Source of the DNA: Advenella sp. FME57
Lineage (GTDB): Bacteria > Pseudomonadota > Gammaproteobacteria > Burkholderiales > Burkholderiaceae_B
DNA: 64,000 nucleotides
Reading direction: 5' to 3'
Assembly: GCF_014897675.1 (NCBI RefSeq)
Contig: NZ_JABUXU010000005.1
Span: forward strand, 62,001-126,000
Shown: piece after piece, positions 21,078-26,319 of the stretch
How the letters are laid out: every line of letters starts with the position of its first letter
How positions within the stretch are numbered: the stretch's first letter is position 1
The notes under the pieces: model-generated
Databases searched by the model: none
Seen by the model: the letters and a program-made list of their open reading frames with translations, nothing else
What the model was told of the DNA's origin: nothing
Made by a program: the position numbers and the translations under genes

Positions 21078-21971
21078 ATGAAGACCCCGCTCACAGATTA
21101 CAAAATCGATCTGAATGCGTATTTTGCCAAACTCGGTTATACAGGATCCCAGGACCCCACGCTGGAGACGCTGGCAGCGCTGCAGTTGTTGCACCAGAAG
21201 ACTATTTCATTTGAAAATCTGGACCCGTTTCTGAACCGGTCGGTTCCGATCGATTTGCCCAGCCTTGAGCACAAACTGGTATTCAGTGAGCGCGGCGGGT
21301 ACTGCTATGAACAGAATTTGCTGTTCGCCCATGTGTTGCGCCGTCTGGGCTTTACTGTGTCCAATCTGCTGGCGCGTGTGCTGTGGGGTGCCGACGATAA
21401 TGCCATTACCCCTCGCTCCCATATGCTGCTGCATGTCAGGCTGGATCATCGCCCTTACATTGTCGACGTGGGCTTTGGCGGCAACTCCATTCCCGCGCCC
21501 ATGGTGATGAACCGGGAAAATCTGCAGCAAACCAGCCACGGCACTTATCGCTGTCTGCTGATTGATGGCGATTACTGGCTACAGGTTCATACCAACACAG
21601 GCTGGCGCAATATGTACCGGTTCGATTTGACCCGGCAGCATCCGGTGGACTACATTGCGCCCAACTATTACACATCCACGCACGACGATTCCCATTTCCG
21701 TCATTCCGTTGTGGCAGCCAGGATTTTCCAGAATGGGCGCTATACCTTGCGCAACAATCTGCTAACCACGCGTTATGAGGATGGACAGACTGAACAGACC
21801 ATGCTGGAAAGCGCGCAAGCGGCGCAAGCCGCGTTGCATGACGTTTTTGGGATTTGCGTGCCGGATATGACGGCGTTTGCAAAGAAATGGCAGCTGTTAG
21901 CCCAGGGATGGGAAATGGGCGCCCGGTCCCTCGTCCGAGAGCCTGTCCAGGTAGTTGCGCAAGGGGCATGA
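21078..21971 (+). CDS. nat: Arylamine N-acetyltransferase
   Basis: 297-residue enzyme that transfers acetyl from acetyl-CoA to arylamines or hydrazines. The Cys-His-Asp triad is visible: Cys in [14 protein letters not shown], His in [10 protein letters not shown] and Asp in [10 protein letters not shown]. The length is usual for bacterial NATs. CCCGGAGTGTTTTG before the ATG at 21078 supports this start over an ATG 51 bases upstream. Its last 75 bases overlap the 3' end of the convergent soxR gene. In some bacteria NAT takes part in aromatic catabolism; here the neighbours suggest detoxification. Confidence 0.93.
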
Positions 21972-22358
21972 CGCAATCGACAGGCAACCACACCCTATGC
22001 ATTCGGTAAGCTGATCGCGCAGGCTGGTCAGCGTCCGGATGCGGTCGCTCAGATCATCATGCCAGACCTGGGACATGCGTTCCCAGTCTGCTGCGCTCGG
22101 GGTCCGGCCGCTGGGCAGGGTGGCAAACGCTTCGGCAATTTCCGTCAATGGAATGCCCACCCGCTGTGCAACCTTGATAATGGCCACTCTGCGCAGGACT
22201 TCGCGTTTGTAGCGGCGCTGGTTGCCGCTGTTTCGTACGCTGGCAATTAATCCCTTGCGTTCATAAAAGTGCAGCGCAGATACCGCCACGCCGCTGCGTC
22301 GGGCTACGTCGCCCACCGACAGTAGTTTTCCGTGTTCTTCAGGTTTTATCTCTGGCAT
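21897..22358 (-). CDS. soxR: Redox-sensitive MerR-family activator SoxR
   Basis: 153-residue MerR-type regulator sensing redox-cycling compounds through a 2Fe-2S cluster. The N-terminal winged helix-turn-helix is [20 protein letters not shown] with YERKGLI; the C-terminal metal site [19 protein letters not shown] has the four-cysteine C-x2-C-x-C-x5-C pattern diagnostic for SoxR. There is no soxS here, as is normal outside enterobacteria, where SoxR controls oxidoreductases and efflux pumps directly. It overlaps the nat gene tail to tail by 75 bases, so the two 3' ends are antisense to each other. Confidence 0.93.
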
Positions 22359-22647: not shown

Positions 22648-23646
22648 ATGACCGATCCGGTGACGGCGCAATTTGCGCAACGTATCAGTAATATGGCAGT
22701 TGAAAATATGCCGGTTGCGGCTACAGAACAGATTCGCTGGCGTGTGCTCAAGGCACTTGCAGCGATACTGAGCGCAGACATAAACCGGCAGGTAACCGTG
22801 CCGCGTACCACCACCACTATCGGCACCAGCGCCAGCAGCGGCTCGCAGGCCGCTATGGACACAACAGGATATATTCAGAACCAACCGGTGTTATCAGCCT
22901 TGTCAACTGGCGTGATGCTTGAAATCCCACAGCCTGGTGCAGATGCGCATTCCGGGTTCATGACAGTGGACGCCGCCGTCATTCCTGCTGCTTGGGCGCT
23001 CGTCCAGGCCTGTCAGGGCAGCGGGCACGTGTTCATGAGCGCGCTGGCCGCCGGTTACCTTGCAACAAGGGTATTGGCCGATCTGCCTGATATCGATCAC
23101 AGCCCTGCCTGGCGGGGCGGCGCTGTTAATGGAACGGTCGGAGCCGCGGTGGCGGCAGCCAGAGCAAGCCAGTTACCCGCAACCGCGACGCTGGATGCAA
23201 TGGGATTTGCTGCTGCGCAGGCGGCGCAATTGGCGGAAAATGCGGCAACAGCGGCTCAGGCCAGGATACACGATGCTATCGGTGGCGTTTCCCAGGACCC
23301 GCCCGATCTTCCCGGCCCCGGCCGGTCCGCGATGGATGGAGTGCTATCGGCCCATATGGCGACATTGGGCGGTCACTGTCCGCCTGCATTGATTGAGCAA
23401 CTACAGCTGCGTATGGGCACCGTGAACCTGAATCGCGCCTTGTCTGACGCCTGGGTCGCTGTCCAACGCAACCGGCCATGCACCGGGATCGAGGCCATAC
23501 GGGGTTTCCGGAAGCAGGTTGCATCAGTCATCAGCAATGGCGAGGCCGAGAGGATTATCGGCTTGATACTGCATCTGGAATATACTGCCCCGGGTGAGCT
23601 GACGACCTATGTGAATGAGCGGATTGCCTCCCGTCTGGATTCATAA
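22648..23646 (+). CDS. Diverged MmgE/PrpD-like protein
   Basis: 332-residue protein with weak but recognisable similarity to the MmgE/PrpD helical dehydratase/isomerase family: an N-terminal FAQRISNMAVENMP helix, HSGFMTVDAAVIPAAWAL, and the alpha-helical GGAVNGTVGAAVAAARASQL followed by MGFAAAQAAQLAEN. It is about 120 residues shorter than typical members (around 450), and the expected catalytic Asp/Lys/His region is not clear, so activity is doubtful. It is a single gene ahead of the ParD-like/map unit. The call rests on pattern memory and could be wrong in detail. Confidence 0.5.
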   Translation: MTDPVTAQFAQRISNMAVENMPVAATEQIRWRVLKALAAILSADINRQVTVPRTTTTIGTSASSGSQAAMDTTGYIQNQPVLSALSTGVMLEIPQPGADAHSGFMTVDAAVIPAAWALVQACQGSGHVFMSALAAGYLATRVLADLPDIDHSPAWRGGAVNGTVGAAVAAARASQLPATATLDAMGFAAAQAAQLAENAATAAQARIHDAIGGVSQDPPDLPGPGRSAMDGVLSAHMATLGGHCPPALIEQLQLRMGTVNLNRALSDAWVAVQRNRPCTGIEAIRGFRKQVASVISNGEAERIIGLILHLEYTAPGELTTYVNERIASRLDS

Positions 23647-23670: not shown

Positions 23671-23679
23671 TGATATACT
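23671..23679 (+). promoter_or_regulatory. Extended -10 promoter of the ParD-like/map operon
   Basis: TGATATACT fits an extended -10 (TGN-TATACT). No clear -35 box is present, as is common for this class. Transcription should begin near 23686, eight bases before a 34-bp palindrome. Confidence 0.6.
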
Positions 23680-23693
23680 AAACATATGCGTTT

Positions 23694-23727
23694 CATATAA
23701 CATCATTCAGCTGAATGACGTTATATG
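23694..23727. repeat. 34-bp near-perfect palindrome at the transcription start of the ParD-like/map operon
   Basis: Two 17-base arms meeting without spacer: CATATAAC-A-TCATTCAG and CTGAATGA-C-GTTATATG, with a single mismatched pair. In DNA it could be an operator for an autoregulator such as the ParD-like protein; in RNA it folds into a long hairpin right at the 5' end. Confidence 0.8.
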
Positions 23728-23729
23728 TT

Positions 23730-23758
23730 GGCGTGGCCTTGCGGTCGCGCCATTTTTT
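23730..23758 (+). terminator. Intrinsic terminator inside the leader of the ParD-like/map operon
   Basis: 9-bp GC-rich stem GGCGTGGCC / GGTCGCGCC (two wobble pairs) with loop TTGC, followed by ATTTTTTAT. It ends 22 bases before the ParD-like ATG. It may serve the MmgE/PrpD-like gene upstream, attenuate the operon, or end a roughly 75-base RNA starting near 23686. Confidence 0.8.
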
Positions 23759-23779
23759 ATTACCGACTCCGGACAAATT

Positions 23780-24040
23780 ATGGGTATTGTAAAAATTTCC
23801 GATCAGATGCATGAAAACCTGCGTCTGGCCAGTACGGCGCTTAGTCGTTCCATCAACGCTCAGGCCGAGCACTGGATGCGCATTGGCATGCTGGCTGAAA
23901 TGTATCCCGATCTTGATCATAGCGACCTGTGCCGTCTGCTGGTGCAGGCCGGGCAGAGTGGCTCGCTGGATCTGAACTCGATCTCGACCATGGGTACAGC
24001 GGCGATCCGTGCAGGTGTGCCTGCGGGGGCGCGTCAATGA
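23780..24040 (+). CDS. ParD-like antitoxin-type protein
   Basis: 86-residue protein of the ParD-like family. It starts MGIVKISDQMHENLRLASTA, a ribbon-helix-helix type beginning, continues SRSINAQAEHWMRIGMLAEM and ends in a less conserved region. The stop overlaps the ATG of a methionine aminopeptidase gene (ATGA), so the two are translationally coupled. No RelE/ParE-type toxin is nearby; the aminopeptidase occupies the toxin's place. The pairing occurs in other proteobacteria, but its purpose is not established. The upstream 34-bp palindrome is a likely binding site for it (inference). Confidence 0.8.
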   Translation: MGIVKISDQMHENLRLASTALSRSINAQAEHWMRIGMLAEMYPDLDHSDLCRLLVQAGQSGSLDLNSISTMGTAAIRAGVPAGARQ

Positions 24041-24828
24041 GTCAGCGCGTTTCCATCAAAAGTGCCCAGGACATAGCCAAGGCGCGGATCGCCGGCCGAC
24101 TTGCGGCCGATGTTCTGCATATGATTGCGCCGCATGTGAAAGCCGGTGTAACAACCGATGAGCTGGACCGTTTGTGCAACGACTATATCGTGAATGTCCA
24201 GAACACCATCCCTGCCAATATCGGATATCACGGGTTTCCCAAAACCCTGTGTACGTCGGTCAACCATGTCATTTGTCATGGCATTCCTTCCGATAAGGTG
24301 CTGCGCAACGGCGATATCATCAATATCGACGTGGCTATCATCAAGGATGGCTGGTACGGAGACACCAGTCGCATGTATTTTGTGGGAGAGCCGGGGCCGC
24401 TGGCCAGGCGCCTGGTACATACGACCTATGAAGCCATGGTGGCCGGCATCCGTCAGGTGCGTCCTGGCGCTACATTGGGTGATGTCGGCTACGCCATACA
24501 AAGCGTAGCCCACCGCGAAGGGTTCAGTATCGTACGCGAATATTGTGGTCACGGTATCGGACAGATCTACCATGATGATCCGCAAGTGTTGCACTACGGG
24601 CGGCCGGGCGAGGGGCTCAGGTTGCAGGAAGGCATGATGTTTACCATTGAACCCATGGTCAATGCCGGCAAACGCCATTCGCGGCAACTGGCCGATGGCT
24701 GGACGGTGGTTACCAAGGACCACTCACTGTCGGCTCAGTGGGAGCATATGGTCGTGGTCACCGCCGACGGGTTTGAAGTACTTACCCCCTGGCCGGAAGA
24801 TCAGGACGGCTACGAACCCATTGGCTGA
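24037..24828 (+). CDS. map: Type I methionine aminopeptidase
   Basis: 263-residue dinuclear-metal peptidase that removes the initiator methionine from new proteins. The pita-bread fold residues are visible: YHGFPKTLCTSVNHVICHG, the metal ligands Asp in IINIDVAIIKDGWYGDTSRM, His in YCGHGIGQIYHDDP, Glu in FTIEPMVNAG and the last Glu in WEHMVVVTADG. The start at 24037 overlaps the ParD-like stop. Most Burkholderiales carry a housekeeping map next to rpsB, so this is probably a second copy with a separate role, though that cannot be checked within the window. Confidence 0.94.
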   Translation: MSQRVSIKSAQDIAKARIAGRLAADVLHMIAPHVKAGVTTDELDRLCNDYIVNVQNTIPANIGYHGFPKTLCTSVNHVICHGIPSDKVLRNGDIINIDVAIIKDGWYGDTSRMYFVGEPGPLARRLVHTTYEAMVAGIRQVRPGATLGDVGYAIQSVAHREGFSIVREYCGHGIGQIYHDDPQVLHYGRPGEGLRLQEGMMFTIEPMVNAGKRHSRQLADGWTVVTKDHSLSAQWEHMVVVTADGFEVLTPWPEDQDGYEPIG

Positions 24829-25056: not shown

Positions 25057-26319
25057 ATGAGTTTTGATCCAGTTGACCACGATCTTGAACGAGGCCTCGA
25101 TAACCGCCGTCGCGTTCTGGGCGATGCCTGGGTAGAGCGCTCGCTGACCGGCGCCAACGATTTCAATGCCGAGTTTCAACAGCTGATCTCGCGGTTTGCC
25201 TGGCACGAAATCTGGAGCCGACCCGGTCTGGATCACAAAACGCGCCGTATCATTGTTCTGTCTATTACGATTGCAATGGGACGCTGGGAAGAGTTTGACC
25301 TGCATGTGCGTGCGGCGCTCACGGGTGAAGCGTCGTCGCGCCTGACCCCGGATGAAATCAAGGAAGTACTGATGCAGGCAGCAATTTATGCCGGTGTTCC
25401 TGGCGCCAATACGGCTTTCAGTCATGCCATGGCTATCTTGAGGGAAGTTGGACCGCAAATCGGTTACGAGCCGCAAGCCTATTCTCCTTTGGACGTCTTT
25501 CATTCAGGAACCGGGCAGGAAGATCGTACGGTCAGTAAGCCGGCGCTGCACTACACGATACGCCGTGCCCGTAATGGCAAGGCAAAAAATACGGTTGTGT
25601 TAAGTCATGCGCTGGGTTGCGATCTGGCCATGTGGGACCGCCTGGCCAGCGAGCTGGCGGCCGATCATGATGTGATTGCCTATGATCATCGCGGCCATGG
25701 CAGTTCCGATGCGCCTGCCGGGCTGTACAGCATGGCTGAGCTGGCGGATGACGCCGCGCGACTGCTGCGTGAACTGGACAGCGGCCCTGTTGTGTGGATC
25801 GGCTTGTCGATGGGAGCAATGGTCGGGCAGGAACTGGCCTTGCGTCATCCCGAGCAGTTAATATCACTTGTGATCGCCAATTCCACTTCGGGGTATCCGC
25901 AAGAGGCGCGGGACAACTGGCGTCAGCGTATTGCAACTGTGCAGGATCAGGGTATTGAAGCCATTGCCGATGCCGTGATGCAGCGCTATTTTCACGATAC
26001 ATTCCGGCGCGAGCACGCCGGTGACGTGGCGGCTTACCGTCGTCGCCTGCTGACTACCGACACCGAAGGATATATTGGGTGCTGCAACGCAGTTGGCACG
26101 GTCGATACCACGGACAGGCTCAAGGACTTGTCGTTGCCGGTGCTGGTCATCGCCGGACGCCTGGACCAGGGCGCGCCGCTGCAAATGTCGGAAATCATGA
26201 GCAGCCAGATTGCGGGCGCGCAATTGGTGGTGCTGGAGGACGCATCGCACATTGCCGTTGTTGAACAGCCCGAGGCGTTTGCGGACGCGGTAAAGCAGTT
26301 TCTGAATAAACACGATTGA
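25057..26319 (+). CDS. Fused 4-carboxymuconolactone decarboxylase / 3-oxoadipate enol-lactonase (PcaC-PcaD order)
   Basis: 420-residue two-domain protein. Residues 1-130 are a carboxymuconolactone decarboxylase (RGLDNRRRVLGDAWVERSL, RIIVLSITIAMGRWEEFDLH, EVLMQAAIYAGVPGANTAF); residues 165-420 are an alpha/beta hydrolase of the enol-lactonase type with nucleophile Ser251 in GLSMGAM and the C-terminal catalytic His in DASHIAVVEQPE. Together they convert 4-carboxymuconolactone to 3-oxoadipate in the protocatechuate branch. In the known actinobacterial PcaL fusion the lactonase comes first; here the order is reversed. No other pca genes adjoin it, so it may act on a related lactone. Confidence 0.9.
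   Translation: MSFDPVDHDLERGLDNRRRVLGDAWVERSLTGANDFNAEFQQLISRFAWHEIWSRPGLDHKTRRIIVLSITIAMGRWEEFDLHVRAALTGEASSRLTPDEIKEVLMQAAIYAGVPGANTAFSHAMAILREVGPQIGYEPQAYSPLDVFHSGTGQEDRTVSKPALHYTIRRARNGKAKNTVVLSHALGCDLAMWDRLASELAADHDVIAYDHRGHGSSDAPAGLYSMAELADDAARLLRELDSGPVVWIGLSMGAMVGQELALRHPEQLISLVIANSTSGYPQEARDNWRQRIATVQDQGIEAIADAVMQRYFHDTFRREHAGDVAAYRRRLLTTDTEGYIGCCNAVGTVDTTDRLKDLSLPVLVIAGRLDQGAPLQMSEIMSSQIAGAQLVVLEDASHIAVVEQPEAFADAVKQFLNKHD

Follow-up and report, generated by a model that had tools for sequence, protein, structure and literature searches.

Organization of the parD-like/map locus

The window analysed is a stretch of 64,000 nucleotides from an Advenella genome of 4.74 Mb. In it, a parD-like gene and an overlapping map gene are preceded by an extended -10 element, two palindromic segments and an intrinsic terminator, and an mmgE/prpD-like gene lies upstream in the same direction (Table 1). 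A check of the sequence placed the -10 element, the longer palindrome, the terminator and the parD-like ATG where an earlier, sequence-only reading had put them. The T run of the terminator lies just 21 nt ahead of the parD-like ATG; transcripts from the conserved promoter must therefore pass the terminator. The same genes were present in six of the ten Advenella genomes examined, those of the window and of five relatives (G001, G003, G006, G007 and G009), with the same order of elements in all six. At 332 aa, the mmgE/prpD-like gene is short, and its divergence is much faster than that of the genes around it. Domain searches also identified a MerR-family regulator on the minus strand at 21897-22358, carrying a CxxCxCxxxxxC motif similar to the SoxR motif, and a carboxymuconolactone decarboxylase domain fused to an alpha/beta hydrolase at 25057-26319.

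Table 1. Features of the parD-like/map locus and its leader, in positions of the window
Feature	Position	Strand	Description and basis
mmgE/prpD-like gene	22648..23646	+	332 aa; PF03972 E 3e-13, N-terminal domain match only; upstream neighbour
Extended -10 element TGATATACT	23671..23679	+	Sequence; TG[A/T]TATACT in 6/6 Advenella
26-bp palindromic operator TATACTAAACATATGCGTTTCATATA	23674..23699	.	22/26 matches to consensus TATACGAAACGTATACGTTTCGTATA
Predicted terminated leader RNA, ~73 nt	23686..23758	+	From promoter and terminator; start predicted 7 nt past the -10
Hairpin 1 (34-bp palindrome)	23694..23727	+	Fold z-scores, covariation
Intrinsic terminator, 10-pair stem, 4-nt loop, T6	23729..23758	+	Terminator scan, fold z-scores, compensations
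parD-like gene, 86 aa	23780..24040	+	PF11903 E 4e-30
Accessory map, type I methionyl aminopeptidase	24037..24828	+	TIGR00500, PF00557; ATGA overlap with parD-like

The ParD-like protein matched PF11903 with 104 bits (gathering score, 23) and had no NCBIfam match; PADLOC returned no match for either the ParD-like protein or Map. The AlphaFold monomer of the ParD-like protein (pLDDT 80.7) contained helices and no strand, and a Foldseek comparison of this model with the PDB gave no match at E ≤0.001. A sequence search of the PDB gave a best E-value of 0.87, to an unrelated entry. The FitA-like_RHH profile matched 6 of 22 members weakly (best E 0.03), and an equally unproven CUE-domain match was obtained for 9 of the 22 (E 0.004). 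Since the fold and profile results were weak, the proposed DNA-binding role of the ParD-like protein rests on the Pfam name and on the operator footprint described below. A Mycobacterium tuberculosis ParD_like protein has been listed beside a zeta toxin (PMC6504116).

The map product scored 314 bits against TIGR00500 (cut-off, 171). Another type I map gene, 60% identical to that of the window, lies between rpsB and glnD (contig C21), so the window map is a second, accessory copy. This result qualifies the earlier remark that a coupling of map to attenuation would be unusual: map does lie behind the leader terminator, but the gene concerned is the accessory map and not the sole copy. The map gene followed parD-like in the same direction at all 80 loci of one set (the best 80 of at least 587) and at 13 of the 16 loci of a second set. 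No known toxin, the neighbour by which a type II toxin-antitoxin system is recognized, stood next to parD-like; its partner is a type I methionyl aminopeptidase. No description of the parD-like/map leader or operator was found in the literature searched.

A probably old promoter overlapping a 26-bp operator

A plain sigma-70 consensus scan found no -35/-10 promoter on the plus strand, so the promoter call rests on the extended -10 element and its conservation. The -10 forms the left end of a 26-bp palindrome, which the earlier reading missed and whose other end extends into the left arm of the 34-bp palindrome. Matches to the consensus of this operator numbered 22-25 of 26 in all six Advenella loci and 17-24 of 26 in all 78 loci from outside the genus (the best 80 of at least 587 places, minus two from Advenella). 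The latter set spans Pseudomonas, Acidovorax, Undibacterium, Hydrogenophaga and further genera, and the operator covers the parD-like/map promoters in Pseudomonas and Burkholderiales (loci L026-L103). The operator ended 8-22 nt from the start codon in the 78 loci, compared with 78-82 nt in Advenella. When 94 upstream regions were shuffled, the best of 50 shuffles each scored ≤17 in 91 regions, and the three exceptions reached 18 (two regions) or 19 (one region). Score alone does not clearly set the 28 sites at 17-19 apart from chance, and their steady position is the stronger argument.

Ten further non-Advenella loci comprised seven with scores of 17-21 and three with scores of 11-13, the latter including the two weakest protein matches. 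Another 43 family loci (23 listed and 20 hand-picked) were scored without shuffle controls; 39 of these reached 16-22, of which 17 reached only 16-17, and four scored 11-14, two of the four carrying a differently spaced palindrome. The site lay 2-20 nt from the ATG in the 39 loci, with the exception of L161. At this locus, in the region of G149 from another genus of the family, 37 nt lie between the operator and the ATG, and they include a short hairpin, GCTTCA CAAA TGAAGC, without a T run. Three other genomes of that genus match only from about the ATG onward, and the hairpin is perhaps a separate leader gain. At L144 and L145, from another genus, the usual operator is replaced by a palindrome with other inner spacing, AATATACGTTT-CGTTATA-AAACGTATATT.

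Within Advenella, the operator with up to three mismatches occurred only at the parD-like locus and was absent from the four genomes without parD-like. Identity to the window was 86-93% over the promoter and operator, compared with 45-79% just before the promoter, and the former was better kept in each of the five relatives. The ParD-like protein is itself the most likely ligand of the 26-bp palindrome and would thus repress its own synthesis. As the operator, its position and the following map were kept across loci, parD-like and map seem to form an old unit with their promoter and operator.

Two hairpins in the leader

The near-perfect 34-bp palindrome of the earlier reading was upheld: 16 of its 17 pairs are Watson-Crick, with one A/C mismatch, and 0.00 matches to its 32-bp pattern were expected from 100 shuffled windows. 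No second copy of the palindrome was found in the genome at the sensitivity used, nor with up to three mismatches. The description of an intrinsic terminator with a 9-bp stem ahead of parD-like was also accurate; the stem, GGCGTGGCC/GGTCGCGCC, comprises nine pairs, two of which are G-U, or ten with the flanking T-A. Four terminator-like sites were present in 4 kb, compared with 3.1 in shuffles, so a terminator-like site as such is unremarkable; among the four, the stem of the leader's terminator is the longest.

The leader from 23680 to 23782 folded at -35.5 kcal/mol, compared with -20.2 kcal/mol (sd 3.1) for shuffled sequences (z = -4.9; none of 200 as good), and each of the six Advenella leaders folded as two hairpins. 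The terminator had fold z-scores of -4.1 to -5.2 in all six. For hairpin 1 the scores were -5.6 in the window and -4.8 to -4.9 in three relatives, and they were weak in G009 (-2.1) and G003 (-1.6).

The six leaders aligned from the -10 through the ATG. Standard pairs occupied 92.1% of the 126 pair cells, and the compensating changes in both stems that had been proposed as a check of the leader were found, with 4 of 21 pairs changed on both sides. In the terminator, these were U-A to C-G and G-C to A-U; in hairpin 1, A-U had changed to G-C and to C-G. Shuffles equalled the observed percentage of paired cells in 0 of 500 cases, the covariation score in 0, the number of pairs changed on both sides in 1 and the number of further pair types in 14, although these statistics come from only six related sequences, for which kinship alone can exceed shuffles without structure. 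As a control, partners slid by one to three columns paired in 22-54% of cells. In arm swaps, native hairpin 1 averaged -11.4 kcal/mol and swapped versions -8.6 kcal/mol; the terminator values were -17.8 and -16.5 kcal/mol, respectively. Some foreign right arm outperformed the native one for hairpin 1 in four of six rows (window, G001, G007 and G009), and swaps of the terminator arms set apart mainly G003.

The two hairpins differed in how well their letters were kept. Identity between the window and the five relatives was 54-83% in hairpin 1, 75-100% in the terminator and 55-91% in the stretch after it, and 79-95% in parD-like and 82-93% in map. In the most diverged species, the identity of hairpin 1 is little higher than that of the stretch before the promoter.

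The 34-bp palindrome could instead be a DNA operator for a regulator and not an RNA hairpin. Its symmetry in the window is almost complete, and it starts inside the 26-bp operator, a half-site of which is repeated by its outer arms, CATATAA. Against this, the operator that other genera share is the 26-bp palindrome immediately upstream, and a palindrome scan of the six Advenella loci found only the window copy of the longer one. The latter result led us to drop the DNA-operator reading, which we regard as highly improbable, and also the expectation that the 34-bp sequence would be conserved as a DNA palindrome; in the relatives it persists as an RNA hairpin, weak in the two most diverged. The pattern of changes points the same way. 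On the plus strand, G-U cells outnumbered A-C cells by 18 to 5 overall, by 9 to 5 in hairpin 1 and by 9 to 0 in the terminator, where six of the nine G-U cells represent one invariant pair. This excess favours a plus-strand RNA over a DNA palindrome.

Restriction of the leader to Advenella among the genomes searched

An RNA model built from the six leaders (R1) matched with E ≤1.1e-9 only at parD-like/map, in 6 of 10 genomes of the genus; all other matches had E ≥0.16. Neither the leader model nor the operator pattern matched in the four Advenella genomes without parD-like. When 200 of the 268 family genomes were searched under stricter filters, the model found a match in six, all from Advenella. 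The expected conservation of the leader ahead of map in relatives thus held for the six Advenella genomes with these genes and did not extend to the wider family. No signs of a mobile leader were obtained, in that no other strong copy was found in the genome and there was no match on plasmids. Relatives of the ParD-like protein were recorded on 162 plasmid records, of which 95 were from Pantoea and 142 were predicted to be non-mobilizable.

None of the 78 non-Advenella loci (from the best 80 of at least 587) had five consecutive T residues in the 50 nt that precede the start codon, and the short distance from operator to start codon in these loci leaves too little space for a terminator. Hairpin 1 and the terminator are thus a genus-specific addition to the older promoter, with some 65-70 nt probably gained between the operator and the start codon.

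The terminator could mainly serve to end transcription of the mmgE/prpD-like gene, as the earlier reading had also considered, with its place behind the parD-like promoter being incidental and tolerated as the accessory Map needs little expression. An mmgE-like homologue occupied the same place in all six Advenella loci, and so co-occurred with the terminator, and it was next to parD-like in none of the 78 loci from outside the genus (from the best 80 of at least 587; three of the 78 have less than 3 kb of upstream DNA). Furthermore, the 24 nt that lead from the mmgE-like stop codon to the promoter contained no terminator according to the scan. However, the mmgE-like protein diverges fast while the terminator is kept, its identity to the window ranging between 40% and 81% across the five relatives, compared with 93-99% for the Map protein. 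This explanation also leaves hairpin 1, and the position of the terminator after a conserved promoter and operator, unaccounted for, and transcripts from the parD-like promoter must still pass the terminator even if the mmgE-like gene ends there. We therefore regard it as unlikely.

A probable terminator-gated leader

The reading that we consider probable, from the arrangement and conservation of these elements, is that of a terminator-gated leader in which most transcripts would stop and read-through would yield the ParD-like protein and the second Map. The promoter would be the old one, with its -10 inside the 26-bp operator, and the ParD-like protein would likely repress it. Polymerase starting near 23686 would mostly halt near 23758 and release a two-hairpin RNA of about 73 nt, which may be a by-product or a product, and the fraction that reads through would give the ParD-like protein and the second Map. 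The terminator would act as a standing attenuator on top of autorepression. It may also keep transcription of the mmgE-like gene from running in, a role compatible with attenuation. Sequence comparison shows the layout, the conservation, the RNA structure and, among the genomes searched, the restriction to the genus; the start site, the efficiency of termination, the identity of the repressor and the independence of termination from any regulating factor are what we infer. If termination is efficient, a second enzyme that removes N-terminal methionine would be almost off by default in Advenella, and the role of a widespread accessory Map would become testable.

Of the attenuated leader of an antitoxin-like gene and map that had been suggested, the terminator inside the leader was found in all six Advenella loci; a regulated switch was not supported. 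In such a switch, the 5' end of the RNA, which is the transcribed operator, would pair with the left arm of the terminator, with a protein perhaps stabilising this pairing; alternatively, read-through would follow when a short frame across the terminator stem is translated. The antiterminator pairing was the best fold in all six species before the right arm of the terminator is made. Its gain was only -2.9 to -4.9 kcal/mol, a value equalled by 8-29% of shuffled 5' 8-mers and 34-54% of random ones, and in the finished leader it had a probability of 0.0 compared with 0.89-1.0 for the terminator. Both antiterminator partners are, moreover, conserved for other reasons. The pairing was no better than chance and was rejected as evidence for a switch.

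The short frame, started by an ATG, runs from the right arm of hairpin 1 across the terminator stem in the window, G001, G007 and G006, four species whose DNA is nearly identical across the stem anyway. It is missing in G003 and shifted in G009, its ends differ among the four, and inspection by eye revealed no clear ribosome-binding site ahead of it. G001 and G007 also have an in-frame ATG at -54; because the window carries an additional T behind the terminator stem relative to these two, that ATG is out of frame in the window. The short frame may be a weak lead, and no start codon and reading frame were shared by all six Advenella leaders. With no common leader peptide and the antiterminator at chance level, regulated attenuation is therefore not claimed, and we consider a true switch extremely improbable.

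The leader might also be an independent gene for a trans-acting small RNA, with parD-like/map expressed through minor read-through or from another promoter. The predicted RNA would start from a promoter of its own, and it combines two hairpins and a terminator with compensating changes. Three of the six leaders bear a weak likeness to ncS025, a Burkholderia small-RNA family, over the full length of that family (24.1 bits in the window, 21.3 in G001 and 19.9 in G007; gathering score, 46). The letters of hairpin 1, with their 54-83% identity, are unlike a base-pairing seed, and no strong match to the leader was found away from parD-like/map in the ten Advenella genomes. In addition, ncS025 was absent at E ≤1 from the G006, G009 and G003 leaders, and the unrelated families isrO, sau-6072, AniS, atoC and STnc480 scored alike on the same leaders, all below the cut-off. 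The family occurred in one of 150 genomes, where parD-like was not adjacent within 3 kb. On balance, an independent small-RNA gene is distinctly unlikely, and the terminator-gated leader is retained as the preferred reading.

Membership of a known RNA family was rejected, as no Rfam match exceeded the gathering score in the whole window or in the other five leaders. The identity with ncS025 was likewise rejected, the scores of the window, G001 and G007 being below or near half of the gathering score. A joint scan of the six whole loci listed no ncS025, even for the locus of the window, but it was undiscriminating because E-values grow with the number of bases given. No mention of ncS025 was found in the literature searched. 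With regard to a type III toxin-antitoxin RNA, inspection of the leader by eye revealed two unlike hairpins and no tandem repeats.

Comparison with known systems

Intrinsic-terminator attenuators have a terminator between the promoter and the first gene, as was predicted here in all six Advenella loci. The competing antiterminator of such systems was not found in the six leaders, where the weak pairing was at chance level.

Type II antitoxins, such as ParD and other ribbon-helix-helix proteins, autoregulate through a palindromic operator over the -10. The likeness of the present locus to these promoters lies in the operator over the -10 of an antitoxin gene. The differences are that the partner is map instead of a ParE-type toxin and that Advenella adds a downstream terminator.

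In the RCd22/abiF locus of Clostridioides difficile, RACE and RNA-seq showed that a promoter gives rise to a terminated RNA and, by read-through, to expression of the gene behind it (PMC12373285). Like parD-like/map, it has a structured RNA with an intrinsic terminator ahead of a gene without a predicted promoter of its own, and its authors suggest that the terminator lowers expression of the downstream gene (PMC12373285). RCd22 differs in having abiF motifs in its RNA, which in addition interacts with the protein encoded downstream and neutralises it (PMC12373285). In contrast, no such motif is known for the Advenella leader, and its first gene is antitoxin-like. By analogy with abiF and with type III RNAs, which bind their proteins, the terminated leader RNA could bind the ParD-like protein or the accessory Map, with one promoter giving an excess of an RNA regulator and, by read-through, its targets; we consider such binding very unlikely.

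In Escherichia coli, premature termination, together with the toiL uORF, controls the topAI-yjhQ toxin-antitoxin operon (PMC12121999). There, termination is Rho-dependent and lies inside topAI, and the uORF senses the ribosome, whereas the Advenella terminator is intrinsic and without a common leader peptide (PMC12121999 for topAI-yjhQ). The combination of an operon of an antitoxin-like gene and a spare Map, an operator that reaches from Pseudomonas to Burkholderiales and a genus with a terminator in the 5' leader was not encountered in the literature searched.
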